Program-made: the position numbers and the translations under genes
DNA from: Thermococcus sp.
Lineage (GTDB): Archaea; Methanobacteriota_B; Thermococci; Thermococcales; Thermococcaceae
DNA: 61,399 nucleotides
Direction: 5' to 3'
NCBI RefSeq assembly: GCF_026991495.1
Contig: NZ_JALXBJ010000040.1
Span: forward strand, 1 to 61,399
In this document: positions 2,933-12,508 of the stretch, piece after piece
Layout: every line of letters starts with the position of its first letter
Position numbering within the stretch: the first letter of the stretch is position 1
Notes under the pieces: generated by a model
Databases searched by the model: none
What the model was told of the DNA's origin: nothing
What the model saw: the letters and a program-made list of their open reading frames with translations, nothing else

Positions 2933-6826
<3,894 letters not shown>

Positions 6827-6981: not shown

Positions 6982-7428
6982 TTATCCATCTAATTCGAGG
7001 CCCTCGTAGATAAGCCTCAGCCTGTAGGCGTGCTTGAGCTCCTCCCCGGCCATCATCCTGAAGATCTGGGAGAGGGAGCCCCCTGTTACCTCGGAGAGCT
7101 TTGTGTACATCTCGTAGGCGTGCTTTTCCCTCACTATTGCCTCTACGACGAGCTCCCTCAGGCTCGCTGGTTCAGCCCTTTCATCGGCGAGCATCGGCTC
7201 CAGGGAGAGGACATCGGTGTAGGCTCCGACACCGGCTTTCTCCAGGCTCTCGTTGGACAGGAGGTCTTCCATCGTCTTCCTGTGCCTCAGCTCCTCCTCC
7301 GCCATCAGCTTGAAGGTCTCGACGAGTTCTGGCCTCTCGAAGGTTGCGAAGGTCTCACCGAGCTTGTGGAGGTTGTAGAGCTCGTTCTCCTGCCAGATCA
7401 CCCTCTCCAAAAGCCGCCCCAATCTCAT
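6982..7428 (-). CDS. Ferritin-like / rubrerythrin-type diiron protein
   Basis: The 148-residue protein looks like a four-helix ferritin-like bundle. It has paired Glu and Glu-x-x-His motifs (ENELYNLHK, EEELRHRKTM, EKHAYEMY, GEELKHAYRL) spaced as in rubrerythrin-type diiron proteins. It lacks the Cys-x-x-Cys rubredoxin domain, so it is an erythrin-like short form. A role in peroxide or iron handling is inferred from the family only. Its ATG overlaps the stop of the upstream HAD gene by four bases and its ribosome site lies within that gene's end, so the two are translationally coupled. Confidence 0.83.
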   Translation of the reverse strand: MRLGRLLERVIWQENELYNLHKLGETFATFERPELVETFKLMAEEELRHRKTMEDLLSNESLEKAGVGAYTDVLSLEPMLADERAEPASLRELVVEAIVREKHAYEMYTKLSEVTGGSLSQIFRMMAGEELKHAYRLRLIYEGLELDG

Positions 7429-8240
7429 CCTTCTTCACCCAGCTCCGCCTCAATGTACCCTGGGAGCTCCCCTATTCCAGTCAGCACGAGGTCGGGCCTT
7501 ATTCCGCTCCCTTCGACATCTTCAAGGCTGCTCACACCGGTGAGGACCATTACCGCCTTCATTCCAAAGCGCTTTGCGAAGGCGATATCGGTGTCCAGCC
7601 TGTCGCCGACCATCCAGATTTCTTCAACCCCATCGAGCTTCTCCCTGGCAACATCGTAAGCCGGTTCGTTGGGCTTGCCTATTATGAGGGGCTCCGCACC
7701 GGTTGATGCCTTCAGCGCGGCTATTATCGCGCCCGCGCCCGGGTAGAGGCCCTCCTCAGCCGGGTAGGTCGTGTCCGGGTTGGTGCCTATAAACCGGGCC
7801 CCTTTTCTTACCGCCAGCGTCCCGTACTTGAGCTTCTCGTAGGTTAAATCGGGGTCGAGGCCGACGACGACGTATTCGACATCTCTCCATCCGCCCTTTT
7901 TAGCCCCTTCAACGTCCACAACGCCCCAGCCGAGGCACTTCATCTCCTCCAGAAGGCCTTCTCCCCCGATGACGAAGGCTTTTCCCGGTTTGAAGTGTTC
8001 CTCCATGTAGAGCCTCGTCGCGAGGCCTGAGGTGACGATCCTCTCCTCAGAAACTTCTATGCCCATCCTGAGAAGCTTCTCGCGGTAGCTCCCCGGGGTC
8101 TTCGTGGAGTTGTTGGTCAGCAGGACGAAGGGGATCCCCCTCCCCTTCAGGAATCCTACTGCTTCCCTGGCCCCCTTGATGGGCTCCTCACCCCGGTAGA
8201 GCACTCCGTCCATGTCGAGGATGATGCCGAGCTTCATCAT
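7425..8240 (-). CDS. HAD-family sugar-phosphate or nitrophenyl phosphatase (NagD-like)
   Basis: The 271-residue protein is a haloacid-dehalogenase phosphatase of the NagD/AraL type. The nucleophile motif DMDGVLYRG is at the N-terminus, LLTNNSTKT follows as motif II, the lysine lies in IIGKPNEPAY, and MVGDRLDTDI is the acidic motif. Members remove phosphate from small sugar or glycerol phosphates; the substrate is not predictable here. Two adjacent ATG codons follow GGGGGTGG, so the start may be 8240 or 8237. It is coupled with the downstream ferritin-like gene, and the chimeric membrane protein gene ends nine bases upstream. Confidence 0.88.
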   Translation of the reverse strand: MMKLGIILDMDGVLYRGEEPIKGAREAVGFLKGRGIPFVLLTNNSTKTPGSYREKLLRMGIEVSEERIVTSGLATRLYMEEHFKPGKAFVIGGEGLLEEMKCLGWGVVDVEGAKKGGWRDVEYVVVGLDPDLTYEKLKYGTLAVRKGARFIGTNPDTTYPAEEGLYPGAGAIIAALKASTGAEPLIIGKPNEPAYDVAREKLDGVEEIWMVGDRLDTDIAFAKRFGMKAVMVLTGVSSLEDVEGSGIRPDLVLTGIGELPGYIEAELGEEG

Positions 8241-8248
8241 TCCACCCC

Positions 8249-9259
8249 CTAAGGTCTCACGTGCACGTTGAGCTTTAAACTCTGGACGGTTCCGTTGACG
8301 GCCCCAAGGATGAGCCTCTCGGCGGCTGTTCCCGCGTAGTCCCCGTTCGCGGGCTTCGGAGGCAGCCCCGGCTGCCCGTCCTTGAAGAGGAGGAACCAGA
8401 CCTGCCAGTCCCCGGGTTTCCCGATGCTGAAGGTGTAGTTCCTCTCGAACTCCGGCGTCCAGTTTCCTCCGATGTTCACAGGGACGGGTGGAAGCGTGAC
8501 GTTGAACCAGCCGGGCATCGGGTACATCTCGTGTATCAGCGTCATGTTAGTCCTGTTGTCCCATGTGAGGTTCACCAGCCAGATCTGGACGTAGTAGGTG
8601 ATGTTCCTGCCCTCGTGGTTGGCTATGCCTATGACCACCGTCCCGTTCTGGCCAACCCTGAGGTCGGTTGGGTAGCCGGCCGCCTTTCCCCCCGGTCCGA
8701 GGATGTAGAACTCGGTGAACTTCTCCCCGGGCTTCGGGTGGGTTATGACGTAGCCGAGGGTTCCGATGGAAGTCAGGATGGCTACTATCAGGACAACCGT
8801 CAGGGCCTTGTCGAGCCCGCTCGATTCCTCCCACTCCAGCCACCTCTTGACGTCCCCCATTTCCACCCGCGGAATCCACGGGTCGAAGGCCCGCTCCCTC
8901 CTGTAGATCCCGACCACCGAGAAGGTGATGTTGAAGACCGTCAGGCTGACGAGTATCGGGGTCAGCCTTATCCCCCAGGGGGTGTAGTTGAGGGCGAGGC
9001 CGATCAGGGGGACGATCGCTATGCTCAGGCCAAAGCTTAAGGCCAGGCGTTCGAGGTTGTCGAGTTCTTTCCTGTTGGGGAAGAGGGCAGTTATGAAGAC
9101 GTAGCCCGGGAAGGAGATGATGAAGGAGTACTGACCGAGACCGGTATCTCCAACCGTCCTGCTTATGATAAGAATTATGAGGTAGGAGATGAGCTTGTAA
9201 AGGCTCTGACCCACCAAAAGCCAGCTTGCGTTGGTTATGAGCCTCTGCTTTAAACTCAT
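8249..9259 (-). CDS. Chimeric membrane protein: flippase N-terminus fused to DUF1616
   Basis: The 336-residue protein has two parts of different origin. Residues about 1-50 read like the start of a polysaccharide flippase (NASWLLVGQSLYKLISYLI, then GLGQYSFIISF). From about residue 51 it becomes a DUF1616 protein, with PGYVFITALFP, LERLALSFGLSIAIVPLIG and NYTPWGIRLTP. It then has a further membrane segment near residues 155-175 and a long outward domain with many N-x-S/T sites. The junction is in frame without a stop. The usual first membrane segments of DUF1616 and the remaining membrane segments of the flippase are missing. The ATG follows GGGGAGAG. Function of DUF1616 is unknown. Confidence 0.8.
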   Translation of the reverse strand: MSLKQRLITNASWLLVGQSLYKLISYLIILIISRTVGDTGLGQYSFIISFPGYVFITALFPNRKELDNLERLALSFGLSIAIVPLIGLALNYTPWGIRLTPILVSLTVFNITFSVVGIYRRERAFDPWIPRVEMGDVKRWLEWEESSGLDKALTVVLIVAILTSIGTLGYVITHPKPGEKFTEFYILGPGGKAAGYPTDLRVGQNGTVVIGIANHEGRNITYYVQIWLVNLTWDNRTNMTLIHEMYPMPGWFNVTLPPVPVNIGGNWTPEFERNYTFSIGKPGDWQVWFLLFKDGQPGLPPKPANGDYAGTAAERLILGAVNGTVQSLKLNVHVRP

Positions 9260-9393
9260 TCTCTCCCCGGAGGAGATAGGGAGAACGTTTATTAGAATTT
9301 TGGTAAGGTGCCTTTTGGTTGTTCATTATTTTACTCAGCTTAGGCCTGTTTAATGTTTCTTGTTTTGATTTGTTTTTCAAACCTTTTGAAGCA

Positions 9394-9412
9394 CACGTGA
9401 GTTTTTCACGTG
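9394..9412. promoter_or_regulatory. Perfect inverted repeat in divergent intergenic region
   Basis: CACGTGA and TCACGTG face each other across the five bases GTTTT. The element lies between the divergent genes at 9259 and 9481 and about 25 bases upstream of a TATA-like GTTTTTAAATTA at 9438..9449. It could be an operator, possibly for the winged-helix product of the right-hand gene, or an RNA hairpin. Confidence 0.5.
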
Positions 9413-9480
9413 ACTTCATGTTCTCTTTTGAGCTAGGTTTTTAAATTAGCAAGTTTGACATCTAATTAGGTGATGATTTT

Positions 9481-10236
9481 ATGGGAAATGCACTACTGGA
9501 TTTCAGGAAGTTACTTAAGCTTCTCGCCAAGCTGTACGGTGAGAATGAATTCGATTCTCGAACTGTTGCGGAAGACTTGCAACATTTTTTCCAGCAAGTC
9601 GATGATCCAGAGGTTAGGTCAAGGCTCCTTGAGAGGATAACGCCAAAGCTGATATCCAACGATCTCCGCAGGTTATATATGATGGGCTTCCTCAGGCGCC
9701 GGAAGGTTCCGAGGGAGTGTGAAAGCAAGAAGGGAAAGAGATACAACTGTGGCTATAAATATATGTACAGCATAAACAATCAGGGGTGGAGTTATCTGAG
9801 AAAACTTGTGAAGAACGAAGAAAAACATTCCCTTCTATTTTCCACTGTTTCCGAGGACATCGAAGAAATCTTGGAGAAGATGAGGGTTGGTATGATGAAA
9901 CTTAAAGTGGTGACTGCCTTGGAAAAAGGAAACATTGAATTGGCAATGATCCTATGGGACCTTTATGGGGGTGAGTCAGAGAAAAAATTCCAGTCCAGGG
10001 GGTTTAGACGGTTCATCCGAAAGAAGGAGTTATTTAAAATGGATACAAACTGCTGGATGAATATGTTCTACTTGGGGAGGCAGATATTTTCTCTCAAAAG
10101 GGAAATACGGCTGAAAGATTTAATGATAGACCAGCTTAAGAGAGAACTCGAAGCGTGTATTAAATCCAAGCGTGTGGGGTTTAGAGAGATTCTAGAAATG
10201 TCCAAGAACCTTCACCCGATTAATGAAGAACTTTAG
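9481..10236 (+). CDS. Winged-helix-like protein of unknown function
   Basis: I do not recognise a named family. The first 105 residues of this 251-residue protein read like a winged-helix DNA-binding unit: helices in DFRKLLKLLAKLYGEN, a recognition region near ISNDLRRLYMMGFLRRRKV, and a wing with KGKRYNCGYKYMYSI. The rest is helical and charged, with a likely coiled-coil stretch near IRLKDLMIDQLKRELE. Codon use is AT-rich compared with flanking genes, hinting at recent acquisition. The ATG follows GGTGATGATTTT. It may regulate itself or the divergent chimeric gene through the inverted repeat upstream. Confidence 0.65.
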   Translation: MGNALLDFRKLLKLLAKLYGENEFDSRTVAEDLQHFFQQVDDPEVRSRLLERITPKLISNDLRRLYMMGFLRRRKVPRECESKKGKRYNCGYKYMYSINNQGWSYLRKLVKNEEKHSLLFSTVSEDIEEILEKMRVGMMKLKVVTALEKGNIELAMILWDLYGGESEKKFQSRGFRRFIRKKELFKMDTNCWMNMFYLGRQIFSLKREIRLKDLMIDQLKRELEACIKSKRVGFREILEMSKNLHPINEEL

Positions 10237-10285
10237 CGTCTTTGGGTTCTTCTGTAATCCTCAGATTCAAAAAACAGAAAAGACA

Positions 10286-10963
10286 TCAAACCTCAAGCTC
10301 CTCTCCAGGTTTGAGGATGACAACTTCGGCTTTATCGCCAACGAGCCTCTTGAACTCCTCCGGGTCCTGAGCTATCGGCGGCCAGGTGTTGTAGTGCATC
10401 GGCACGACCTTCTTCGGCTTCAGCAGTTCGACAGCCTTTGCCGCTTCCCTCGGCCCCATCGTGAAGTGCCCGCCTATCGGGAGAAGGGCAACGTCAATCG
10501 GCCCGTAGAGCTCGCTGAAGAGACCCATGTCGAGGAACACGAAGGTGTCTCCGGCGTGATAGATCGTCTTCCCGTCGAGCTTGACTATGAAGCCCGAGGC
10601 GTTGCCTATGCTGTGAACTCCGTCACTGCTTGAGTGCCAGGCCGGAACCTGGACTATTCCAATGCCGTCAATCTCAGTCGGCCCGTAGTTCATCCCTATT
10701 GTCTCAACCTGCCCGTTGGCCTGCCCGCTGATGTAGTTGGCAACGTCGTACATTGCCACTATCTTTGCACCGGTTCTCCTGGCGATCTCTATGGAATCGC
10801 CTATGTGGTCGCCGTGGGCGTGGGTAACTAAAATCAGGTCTGCCTCAAGCTCATCCGGCTTGGCGGCCGCCTGCGGGTTGCCGCTGAGGAACGGGTCTAT
10901 CAGGATCTTCTTGCTCCCCTCGATGTAAAAAGCTGCGTGTCCTAAAAAGCGCACCTTCACCAT
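10286..10963 (-). CDS. MBL-fold metal-dependent hydrolase (UPF0173 type)
   Basis: The protein of about 225 residues is a metallo-beta-lactamase-fold hydrolase. The zinc-binding motif THAHGDH is near residue 55, with further metal ligands in IYHAGDT and PMHYNTW. The start MVKVRFLGHAAFYIEG at 10963 directly follows GGAGGTGGTGG, so the ten extra in-frame codons upstream are unlikely to be used. The family is widespread in archaea and bacteria and its natural substrate is unknown. The gene is convergent with the winged-helix gene and divergent from acdA. Confidence 0.88.
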   Translation of the reverse strand: MVKVRFLGHAAFYIEGSKKILIDPFLSGNPQAAAKPDELEADLILVTHAHGDHIGDSIEIARRTGAKIVAMYDVANYISGQANGQVETIGMNYGPTEIDGIGIVQVPAWHSSSDGVHSIGNASGFIVKLDGKTIYHAGDTFVFLDMGLFSELYGPIDVALLPIGGHFTMGPREAAKAVELLKPKKVVPMHYNTWPPIAQDPEEFKRLVGDKAEVVILKPGEELEV

Positions 10964-11083
10964 CTCCACCACCTCCAACTTAAAATAACCCAAGCTTACT
11001 TAAAGCTTTCGATGGCCCAGAAAAGCCCACTGATGCACTTGTTAAGCTCAATGATGTCCCAACTATCTCCGATGTCCGTTTTG

Positions 11084-11099
11084 GGAAAGCTTATATACG
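11084..11099 (+). promoter_or_regulatory. Promoter of the acdA-iorAB operon
   Basis: GGGAAAGCTTATATACG provides a BRE-like purine stretch and a strong TATA box about 35 bases before the ATG at 11129. The expected transcription start is about ten bases before the start codon. In-frame codons further upstream, from 11012, would be untranscribed and are therefore not part of the gene. Confidence 0.6.
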
Positions 11100-11128
11100 A
11101 TTCCACGGAGATTTTAACGGTGAGGTTC

Positions 11129-12508
11129 ATGACACTCGACTACTTCTTCAGGCCAAGGGGCATAGCTGTCATCGGCGCATCGAACGACCCCTTAAAGCTC
11201 GGCTATGAAGTCTTCAAGAACCTCAAGAAATACAGAGACGGGAAGGTTTATCCGGTAAACGTTAAGGACGAGGTCGTTCAGGGCGTTAGGGCCTACAAGA
11301 ACGTCAAGGAAATCCCCGGTGAAGTTGACCTCGCGATAATAGTTGTTCCCAAAAGATTCGTGAAGCAGACGCTTATTGACTGTGGGAAGAAAGGCGTTAA
11401 AGGAGCGGTAATCATAACGGCAGGTTTTGGCGAGACGGGCGAGGAGGGCAAGAAGGAGGAGCGCGAACTGGTGGAGATTGCCCACCGGTACGGCATGAGG
11501 CTCATCGGCCCGAACTGCGTCGGCGTTATGAACACCCACAACGAGGTGAACGCGACCTTCATAATGGACGCAAGGAAGGGAGATATAGCCTTCGTCAGCC
11601 AGAGCGGAGCTTTGGGAGCGGGAATAGTCTACAAAACTGTGAAAGAAGGAATAGGCTTCTCCAAGTTCGTAAGCGTTGGGAACATGGCCGACCTCGACTT
11701 CGCGGAGCTAATGGAGTATTTAGCGGACACCGAGGAGGACAAGGCGATTGCCCTCTACATCGAGGGGGTTAAGGATGGCAGGAAGTTCATTGAGGTGGCG
11801 AAAAGGGTTACAAAGAAGAAGCCAGTCATAGCGCTAAAAGCCGGGAGGAGCGAGAGCGGAGCAAGAGCTGCATCGAGTCACACGGGTTCTTTAGCAGGAA
11901 GCTGGAAGATTTATGAAGCTGCTTTCAAGCAGGGCGGTGTCCTCATAGCCGAGACCATAGACGATATGCTCAGCATGGCGAGGGCCTTCACACAGCCACT
12001 GCCCAGAGGAAAGCGCGTCGCGATAATGACGAACGCAGGCGGTCCGGGAGTTTTAACGGCGGATGAGATAGACAAGCGCGGGCTGAAGCTGGCGAACCTT
12101 GAGGAAAAGACGATAGAGGAGCTACGCTCCTTCCTTCCGCCGATGGCGGCAGTAAAGAACCCGGTTGACATGATAGCCTCCGCTCGGGGAGAAGACTACT
12201 ACAGGGCAACCAAGGCCCTTCTGCAAGATAAGAACGTTGACATGCTCATAGCGATATGCGTCGTTCCAACCTTCGCTGGAATGACACCGACGGAGCACGC
12301 TGAGGGAGTCATCCGGGCAGTTAAGGAGGTAAACAACGGAAAGCCTGTTTTAGCACTCTTCATGGCGGGCTACGTGAGCGAGAAGGCCAAAGAACTGCTT
12401 GAGAAGAACGGAATCCCAAGCTATGAGAGGCCGGAGGATGTGGCAGCCGGTGCCTACGCCCTCGCCCAGCAGGCGAAGAACGCCGGCGTTTTGGGGAGGA
12501 GTGAGTGA
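11129..12508 (+). CDS. acdA: ADP-forming acyl-CoA synthetase, alpha subunit (aryl-type context)
   Basis: The 459-residue subunit binds CoA-thioesters and conserves their energy as ATP. It shows the CoA-binding Rossmann start FFRPRGIAVIGASNDP, the succinyl-CoA-synthetase-like LIGPNCVG, FVSQSGALG, and SSHTGSLAGS, whose His is the phosphorylated residue. The start at 11129 follows GGTGAGGTTC. The beta subunit is not in this window, as usual in Thermococcales, where it is encoded elsewhere. Its position directly before iorA and iorB parallels the ACS II alpha gene of Pyrococcus, so arylacetyl-CoA from aromatic amino acids is the likely substrate. Confidence 0.93.
   Translation: MTLDYFFRPRGIAVIGASNDPLKLGYEVFKNLKKYRDGKVYPVNVKDEVVQGVRAYKNVKEIPGEVDLAIIVVPKRFVKQTLIDCGKKGVKGAVIITAGFGETGEEGKKEERELVEIAHRYGMRLIGPNCVGVMNTHNEVNATFIMDARKGDIAFVSQSGALGAGIVYKTVKEGIGFSKFVSVGNMADLDFAELMEYLADTEEDKAIALYIEGVKDGRKFIEVAKRVTKKKPVIALKAGRSESGARAASSHTGSLAGSWKIYEAAFKQGGVLIAETIDDMLSMARAFTQPLPRGKRVAIMTNAGGPGVLTADEIDKRGLKLANLEEKTIEELRSFLPPMAAVKNPVDMIASARGEDYYRATKALLQDKNVDMLIAICVVPTFAGMTPTEHAEGVIRAVKEVNNGKPVLALFMAGYVSEKAKELLEKNGIPSYERPEDVAAGAYALAQQAKNAGVLGRSE

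Follow-up and report, generated by a model that had tools for sequence, protein, structure and literature searches.

Organization of the locus

We analysed a stretch of 61,399 nucleotides (hereafter the window) of Thermococcus sp. contig NZ_JALXBJ010000040.1, which belongs to a draft assembly of 92 contigs (G000) that is about 95% complete. An open reading frame of 336 amino acids starts with ATG at position 9259 and runs on the minus strand to 8249. This frame, its parts and its surroundings are as follows:

6982..7428, minus strand: rubrerythrin-like gene, conserved left flank (profile matches and relatives' loci)
7425..8240, minus strand: HAD-type hydrolase gene, starting 8 bp after the fusion stop (DUF1616-HAD order also in G021 and G075)
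8249..9259, minus strand: fusion gene, flippase N-terminus plus DUF1616 membrane protein, 336 aa (split profile and genome matches)
8252..9109, minus strand: codons 51-336, DUF1616-derived, comprising the latter half of TM2, TM3-TM5 and an Ig-like beta domain at the C-terminus (PF07760, orthologs and AlphaFold model)
9109..9115, minus strand: junction, from codon 49 into the first base of codon 51 (codons compared with those of eleven DUF1616 orthologs and two flippases)
9113..9259, minus strand: flippase-derived codons 1-49 (Wzx-type, PF01943), which cover TM1 and the first half of TM2 (71% amino acid identity to G016, contig C331; 70% to G015)
9260..9480, no strand assigned: putative control region between the divergent gene X and fusion, on the side of the join that comes from the flippase (divergence in G016, DNA similarity near the ATG, common palindrome)
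9395..9411, no strand assigned: palindrome ACGTGAGTTTTTCACGT, candidate operator
9481..10236, plus strand: gene X, paired divergently with the flippase in a relative (46% to the G016 gene adjoining the flippase)
10286..10993, minus strand: UPF0173 metal-dependent hydrolase, with which the conserved right flank begins (relatives' loci)

A flippase start joined in frame to a DUF1616 protein

The first-pass annotation had proposed two source families for this frame, a Wzx-type flippase and DUF1616, and separate searches with its two parts split as proposed. Residues 1-50 scanned alone matched a single family, Polysacc_synt (PF01943; 24.3 bits, E 2.5e-5), narrowly missing the cut-off of 28.2, with the full flippase transport body absent. 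Residues 51-336 matched DUF1616 (PF07760) with 246 bits and, besides, gave one non-significant match to DUF4870 (E 0.2). The whole protein scores 250.7 bits against a PF07760 cut-off of 31.6 and is thus a member of DUF1616. In searches of Thermococcus genomes, residues 1-56 matched flippase genes, the best being those of G016 and G015 listed above, and residues from about 45 to 336 matched DUF1616 orthologs in 43 other genomes (68-78% identity across the alignments of the search, and at most about 81% for the DUF1616 part). Flippase DNA similarity also extends 9-19 bp upstream of the ATG. The join was said to be in frame, and the 336 codons are indeed free of stops and frameshifts.

The occurrence of the same N-terminus in ordinary DUF1616 proteins had been named beforehand as evidence against a fusion. 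We looked for it and found it in none of the 43 other Thermococcus genomes with a full-length DUF1616; at six wider archaeal DUF1616 loci whose N-terminus was inspected, all proteins were ordinary DUF1616. A second copy of the fusion in Geoglobus (L128, aligned from residue 2) was considered and rejected, its N-terminus being that of an ordinary DUF1616. An internal start giving a plain DUF1616 protein was also rejected: the translation holds no Met between residue 51 and about 132, so the frame needs the flippase start codon. From these comparisons the flippase-DUF1616 fusion is confirmed as real.

Codon 49 (TCC, Ser) is flippase-like and codon 51 (CCG, Pro) is DUF1616-like, and codon 50 (TTC, Phe50) is compatible with both parents. 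The longest exact word common to the parents measures 9 bases near the junction and 10 bases over the whole genes. Since only short words (up to 9 bases) are shared there, the joining looks illegitimate or microhomology-assisted. The fusion occurs in a single genome, assembled as a 92-contig draft, and an artificial chimera of two loci could be suspected. Against this, the common words are too short for a k-mer overlap, the window contains no N, both flanks are collinear with the complete genome G009, and the join preserves both reading frame and helix register; we regard an assembly artefact as very improbable.

Structure of the hybrid protein

In an alignment with 21 diverse DUF1616 members, the flippase segment stands in for TM1, the loop and half of TM2, and the stretch from a tryptophan to FPGY differs in length by one residue. 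The AlphaFold model of the fusion places helices at residues 3-33, 41-59, 68-91, 99-123 and 148-173, followed by the beta domain, with low confidence at residues 36-50. The model of a normal relative has the same order, five long helices and a beta domain. An altered membrane topology had been suggested for the hybrid. The like-for-like alignment and the modelled order speak instead for a topology that is kept: the junction falls at the matching place in TM2, and the membrane topology is most likely unchanged.

An Arg before TM2, invariant in the 21 members, is missing from the fusion, as are a conserved Leu and a conserved Phe ahead of the junction; the FTEFYILG block is intact. With its own N-terminal helix and the invariant Arg gone, the N-terminus of the fusion is not that of a DUF1616 protein, and the remainder is. 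A fold search with the normal relative returned only generic beta-sandwich matches.

Gene X and the divergent control region

Gene X is present in 15 of 61 Thermococcus genomes, has no Pfam family and possibly encodes a winged-helix regulator. On contig C331 of G016, its homologue lies next to, and diverges from, the flippase that is closest to the fusion N-terminus. The candidate operator ACGTGAGTTTTTCACGT, 86 bp upstream of gene X, is palindromic in relatives too. In the window and in G003, G016, G055 and G068 it takes the form (G/A)CGTGA-N5-TCACG(C/T), 78-95 bp upstream of gene X, with arms that co-vary between species. A second palindrome-like sequence, CATCTAATTAGGTGATG, lies at about 9458-9476, just before the gene X start, and is likewise a candidate operator.

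In G044 (G044:C1:1314276-1316600; L115 9276-11970), about 47 codons are missing from the start of gene X, which borders directly on a decayed C-terminal part of DUF1616. A flippase 5' relic follows on the other strand at a distance of about 1.2 kb, flanked by two copies of the gene X palindrome. We rejected the idea that this DUF1616 relic is a decayed copy of the same fusion: with gene X truncated onto the DUF1616 relic and the flippase relic on the opposite strand, a common origin is not supported.

Gene order in relatives and origin of the fusion

The left (downstream) flank of the fusion consists of HAD, rubrerythrin and ribonucleotide reductase (RNR) genes, the HAD gene being likely on one transcript with the fusion. 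These three genes also lie beside DUF1616 in G012, G014, G021, G043 and G075, in some of them with one gene between DUF1616 and HAD. The right flank consists of gene X, UPF0173, an ADP-forming acyl-CoA synthetase (ACD) and IOR, and in G003 and G044 gene X is likewise a few genes from UPF0173. In G009 both flanks keep the relative order and orientation of the window, with UPF0173 and DUF1616 ~23 kb apart. The interval is occupied by rhamnose genes, a flippase and glycosyltransferases, and then by a DUF58/MoxR/DUF4350/DUF4129 operon; an AglB-like gene stands between DUF1616 and HAD. DUF1616 and gene X also bracket 16-24 kb in G012, G014, G055, G001 and G004, in the first three with the relative orientation of the window.

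Taken together, the collinear layout of G009, the bracketing by gene X and DUF1616 and the divergence of gene X and flippase in G016 make a deletion from the interior of the flippase to the interior of DUF1616 the simplest route. The ancestral order would have been UPF0173, gene X, the flippase (divergent from gene X), a glycan island, the MoxR/DUF58/DUF4350/DUF4129 operon, DUF1616, HAD, rubrerythrin and RNR. Judging from synteny, a deletion of roughly 20 kb would have ended in flippase codon 49-50 and in the TM2 codons of DUF1616, joining them in frame. In the hybrid, the flippase would contribute TM1 and half of TM2, and DUF1616 the rest, including the extracellular Ig-like domain, with the DUF1616 arrangement kept. 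The flippase promoter and start codon would now head the DUF1616-HAD-rubrerythrin row, probably within the common control region of gene X. The in-frame join would also preserve transcription and translational coupling into HAD. The product would most likely retain part of the DUF1616 role at the cell surface, in the absence of the MoxR-system partners. We consider this account as a whole, with island deletion, promoter capture and a partly retained role, the best explanation and a probable one.

Split homology, the missing flippase remainder, the missing DUF4350 ortholog, helix-for-helix replacement and G009 collinearity support the deletion, as do the operon losses in G043 and G075 and the broken flippase in tandem upstream of DUF1616 in G075. 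Counting against it are the presence of UPF0173 without an island in several close relatives (G068, G020, G002, G065), the 92-contig state of the draft, and the arrangement in G015, where 12 kb separates a close flippase from a DUF1616 gene of opposite orientation and an inversion would be needed instead. In none of the genomes did we find this exact flippase in place upstream of DUF1616 and on its strand, so the immediate ancestor is inferred. A deletion between neighbouring genes had been the original suggestion. Deletion stands as a simple cause, and the two genes were probably not immediate neighbours, sitting rather at the two edges of an island about 16-24 kb apart.

The G015 arrangement bears on another possibility, namely a more complex event (an island inverted, translocated or replaced through horizontal transfer) whose reciprocal product was lost or not assembled, since an inversion there would yield the same fusion. 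Islands beside UPF0173 vary by species, and the DUF1616 part groups weakly with G008/G066, with UPF0173 closest to G068/G044. Such an event is nevertheless unlikely in our opinion: both flanks are collinear with G009, and the assembly contains neither a flippase 3' part, nor a reciprocal DUF1616-flippase fusion, nor a MoxR-operon ortholog, the nearest flippase-like sequence being a 48% paralog on contig C2.

Loss of the MoxR/DUF4350 partners

Makarova and colleagues (PMC5898192) placed DUF1616 (arCOG02884) in a predicted MoxR/DUF4350 complex for secretion or membrane remodelling. Both DUF4350 and DUF1616 occur in 40 genomes, and in each of them the two genes lie 3.5-9.7 kb from one another. 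The assembly of the window has no orthologous DUF4350, just a weak off-family match, and the association of MoxR/DUF58/DUF4350 with DUF1616 (arCOG01314/arCOG02884) is not found in this genome. Relocation of the operon was rejected, as the MoxR/DUF58 copies on contigs C23/C44 and C55 are paralogs of about 46-54% and not orthologs. The end of C44 and the start of C23 overlap by 145 bp at 99.3%; they represent one locus and should be joined inside a MoxR gene.

The operon is also missing beside DUF1616 in G043 and G075, and in G017 the contig is broken. G043 (L218 7599-10451) retains an intact DUF1616, with a 33-residue relic left of the adjacent 259-aa gene. In G075 (L217, G075:C1:822000-841000, 7704-11606) DUF1616 is immediately preceded, in the same orientation, by a flippase broken in two pieces, beyond which lies a gene X relic. 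A flippase has thus come to adjoin DUF1616 in more than one genome that lost the operon, although the fusion itself is confined to one. In three Thermococcus genomes, G000, G043 and G075, DUF1616 appears to persist without the MoxR/DUF4350 genes that usually accompany it, which makes its own role, apart from that system, testable.

Selection on the fusion

The dN/dS ratio is about 0.14 between the fusion and the DUF1616 gene of G008, and 0.09 between its N-terminal part and the flippase of G016. One-sided amino acid changes number 27-37 in the fusion lineage against 7-12 in G008 (p between 1.5e-5 and 0.005 across the outgroups tested), with no excess of synonymous changes (20-31 in the fusion lineage against 28-35). 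The fusion protein may thus evolve about threefold faster, a result that is provisional given a poorly resolved tree. The operon-less DUF1616 genes of G043 and G075 are not accelerated. In a comparison of 22 rows, the fusion keeps 139 of 143 otherwise invariant positions, and its private residues in otherwise invariant columns (4 of 14, p 0.18) do not differ from chance. This pattern fits either partial relaxation or adaptation and does not prove function.

We weighed whether a fusion born by deletion could now be a non-functional relic, not yet decayed and kept only for the transcription of HAD and rubrerythrin; this concerns the retained role, not the origin. The lost operon, the lost loop Arg and the excess of amino acid changes would agree with it, and a DUF1616 relic does adjoin gene X in G044. 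The 336 open codons, both dN/dS ratios and the invariant positions kept, in spite of the non-significant private-residue test, point the other way, and we consider a relic less likely than not. It is tempting to propose, if only tentatively, that the chimera is a working DUF1616 surface protein with a hybrid first hairpin, driven by the gene X/flippase promoter in the absence of MoxR/DUF4350 partners. If true, DUF1616 would have a role separate from the predicted MoxR/DUF4350 secretion system.

Relation to known systems

The fusion resembles the DUF1616 family (PF07760, COG4743, arCOG02884; predicted to be S-layer-associated, PMC5898192) from the second half of TM2 to the C-terminus, including FTEFYILG and the Ig-like extracellular domain, and in its position upstream of HAD. 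It differs in its first 49 residues, which are a flippase start, in the loss of the Arg before TM2 and in the absence of the partner operon. With Wzx/MOP-type flippases (PF01943) it shares the first helix, the loop up to GLGQYSF, the start codon, the near-upstream sequence and the divergent neighbour, whereas all but 49 of the about 390 or more residues are gone and there is no transport body. HVO_2173 of Haloferax volcanii, like the fusion a DUF1616 membrane protein, has been shown to be N-glycosylated, and no flippase N-terminus is reported for it (PMC8241124).

Gene fusion by deletion is an already known kind of event; the flippase-DUF1616 case is local, of modest general interest, and is no new class of system. 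Its value is that of a single legible archaeal case in which genes would have been fused through the loss of a genomic island, with undeleted relatives for comparison, and in which DUF1616 is separated from its predicted MoxR/DUF4350 system.

Further along the left flank, the ribonucleotide reductase frame (2933-6805 in the window, 1290 aa) appears to carry an intein, and orthologs of 1756 aa suggest further inteins.
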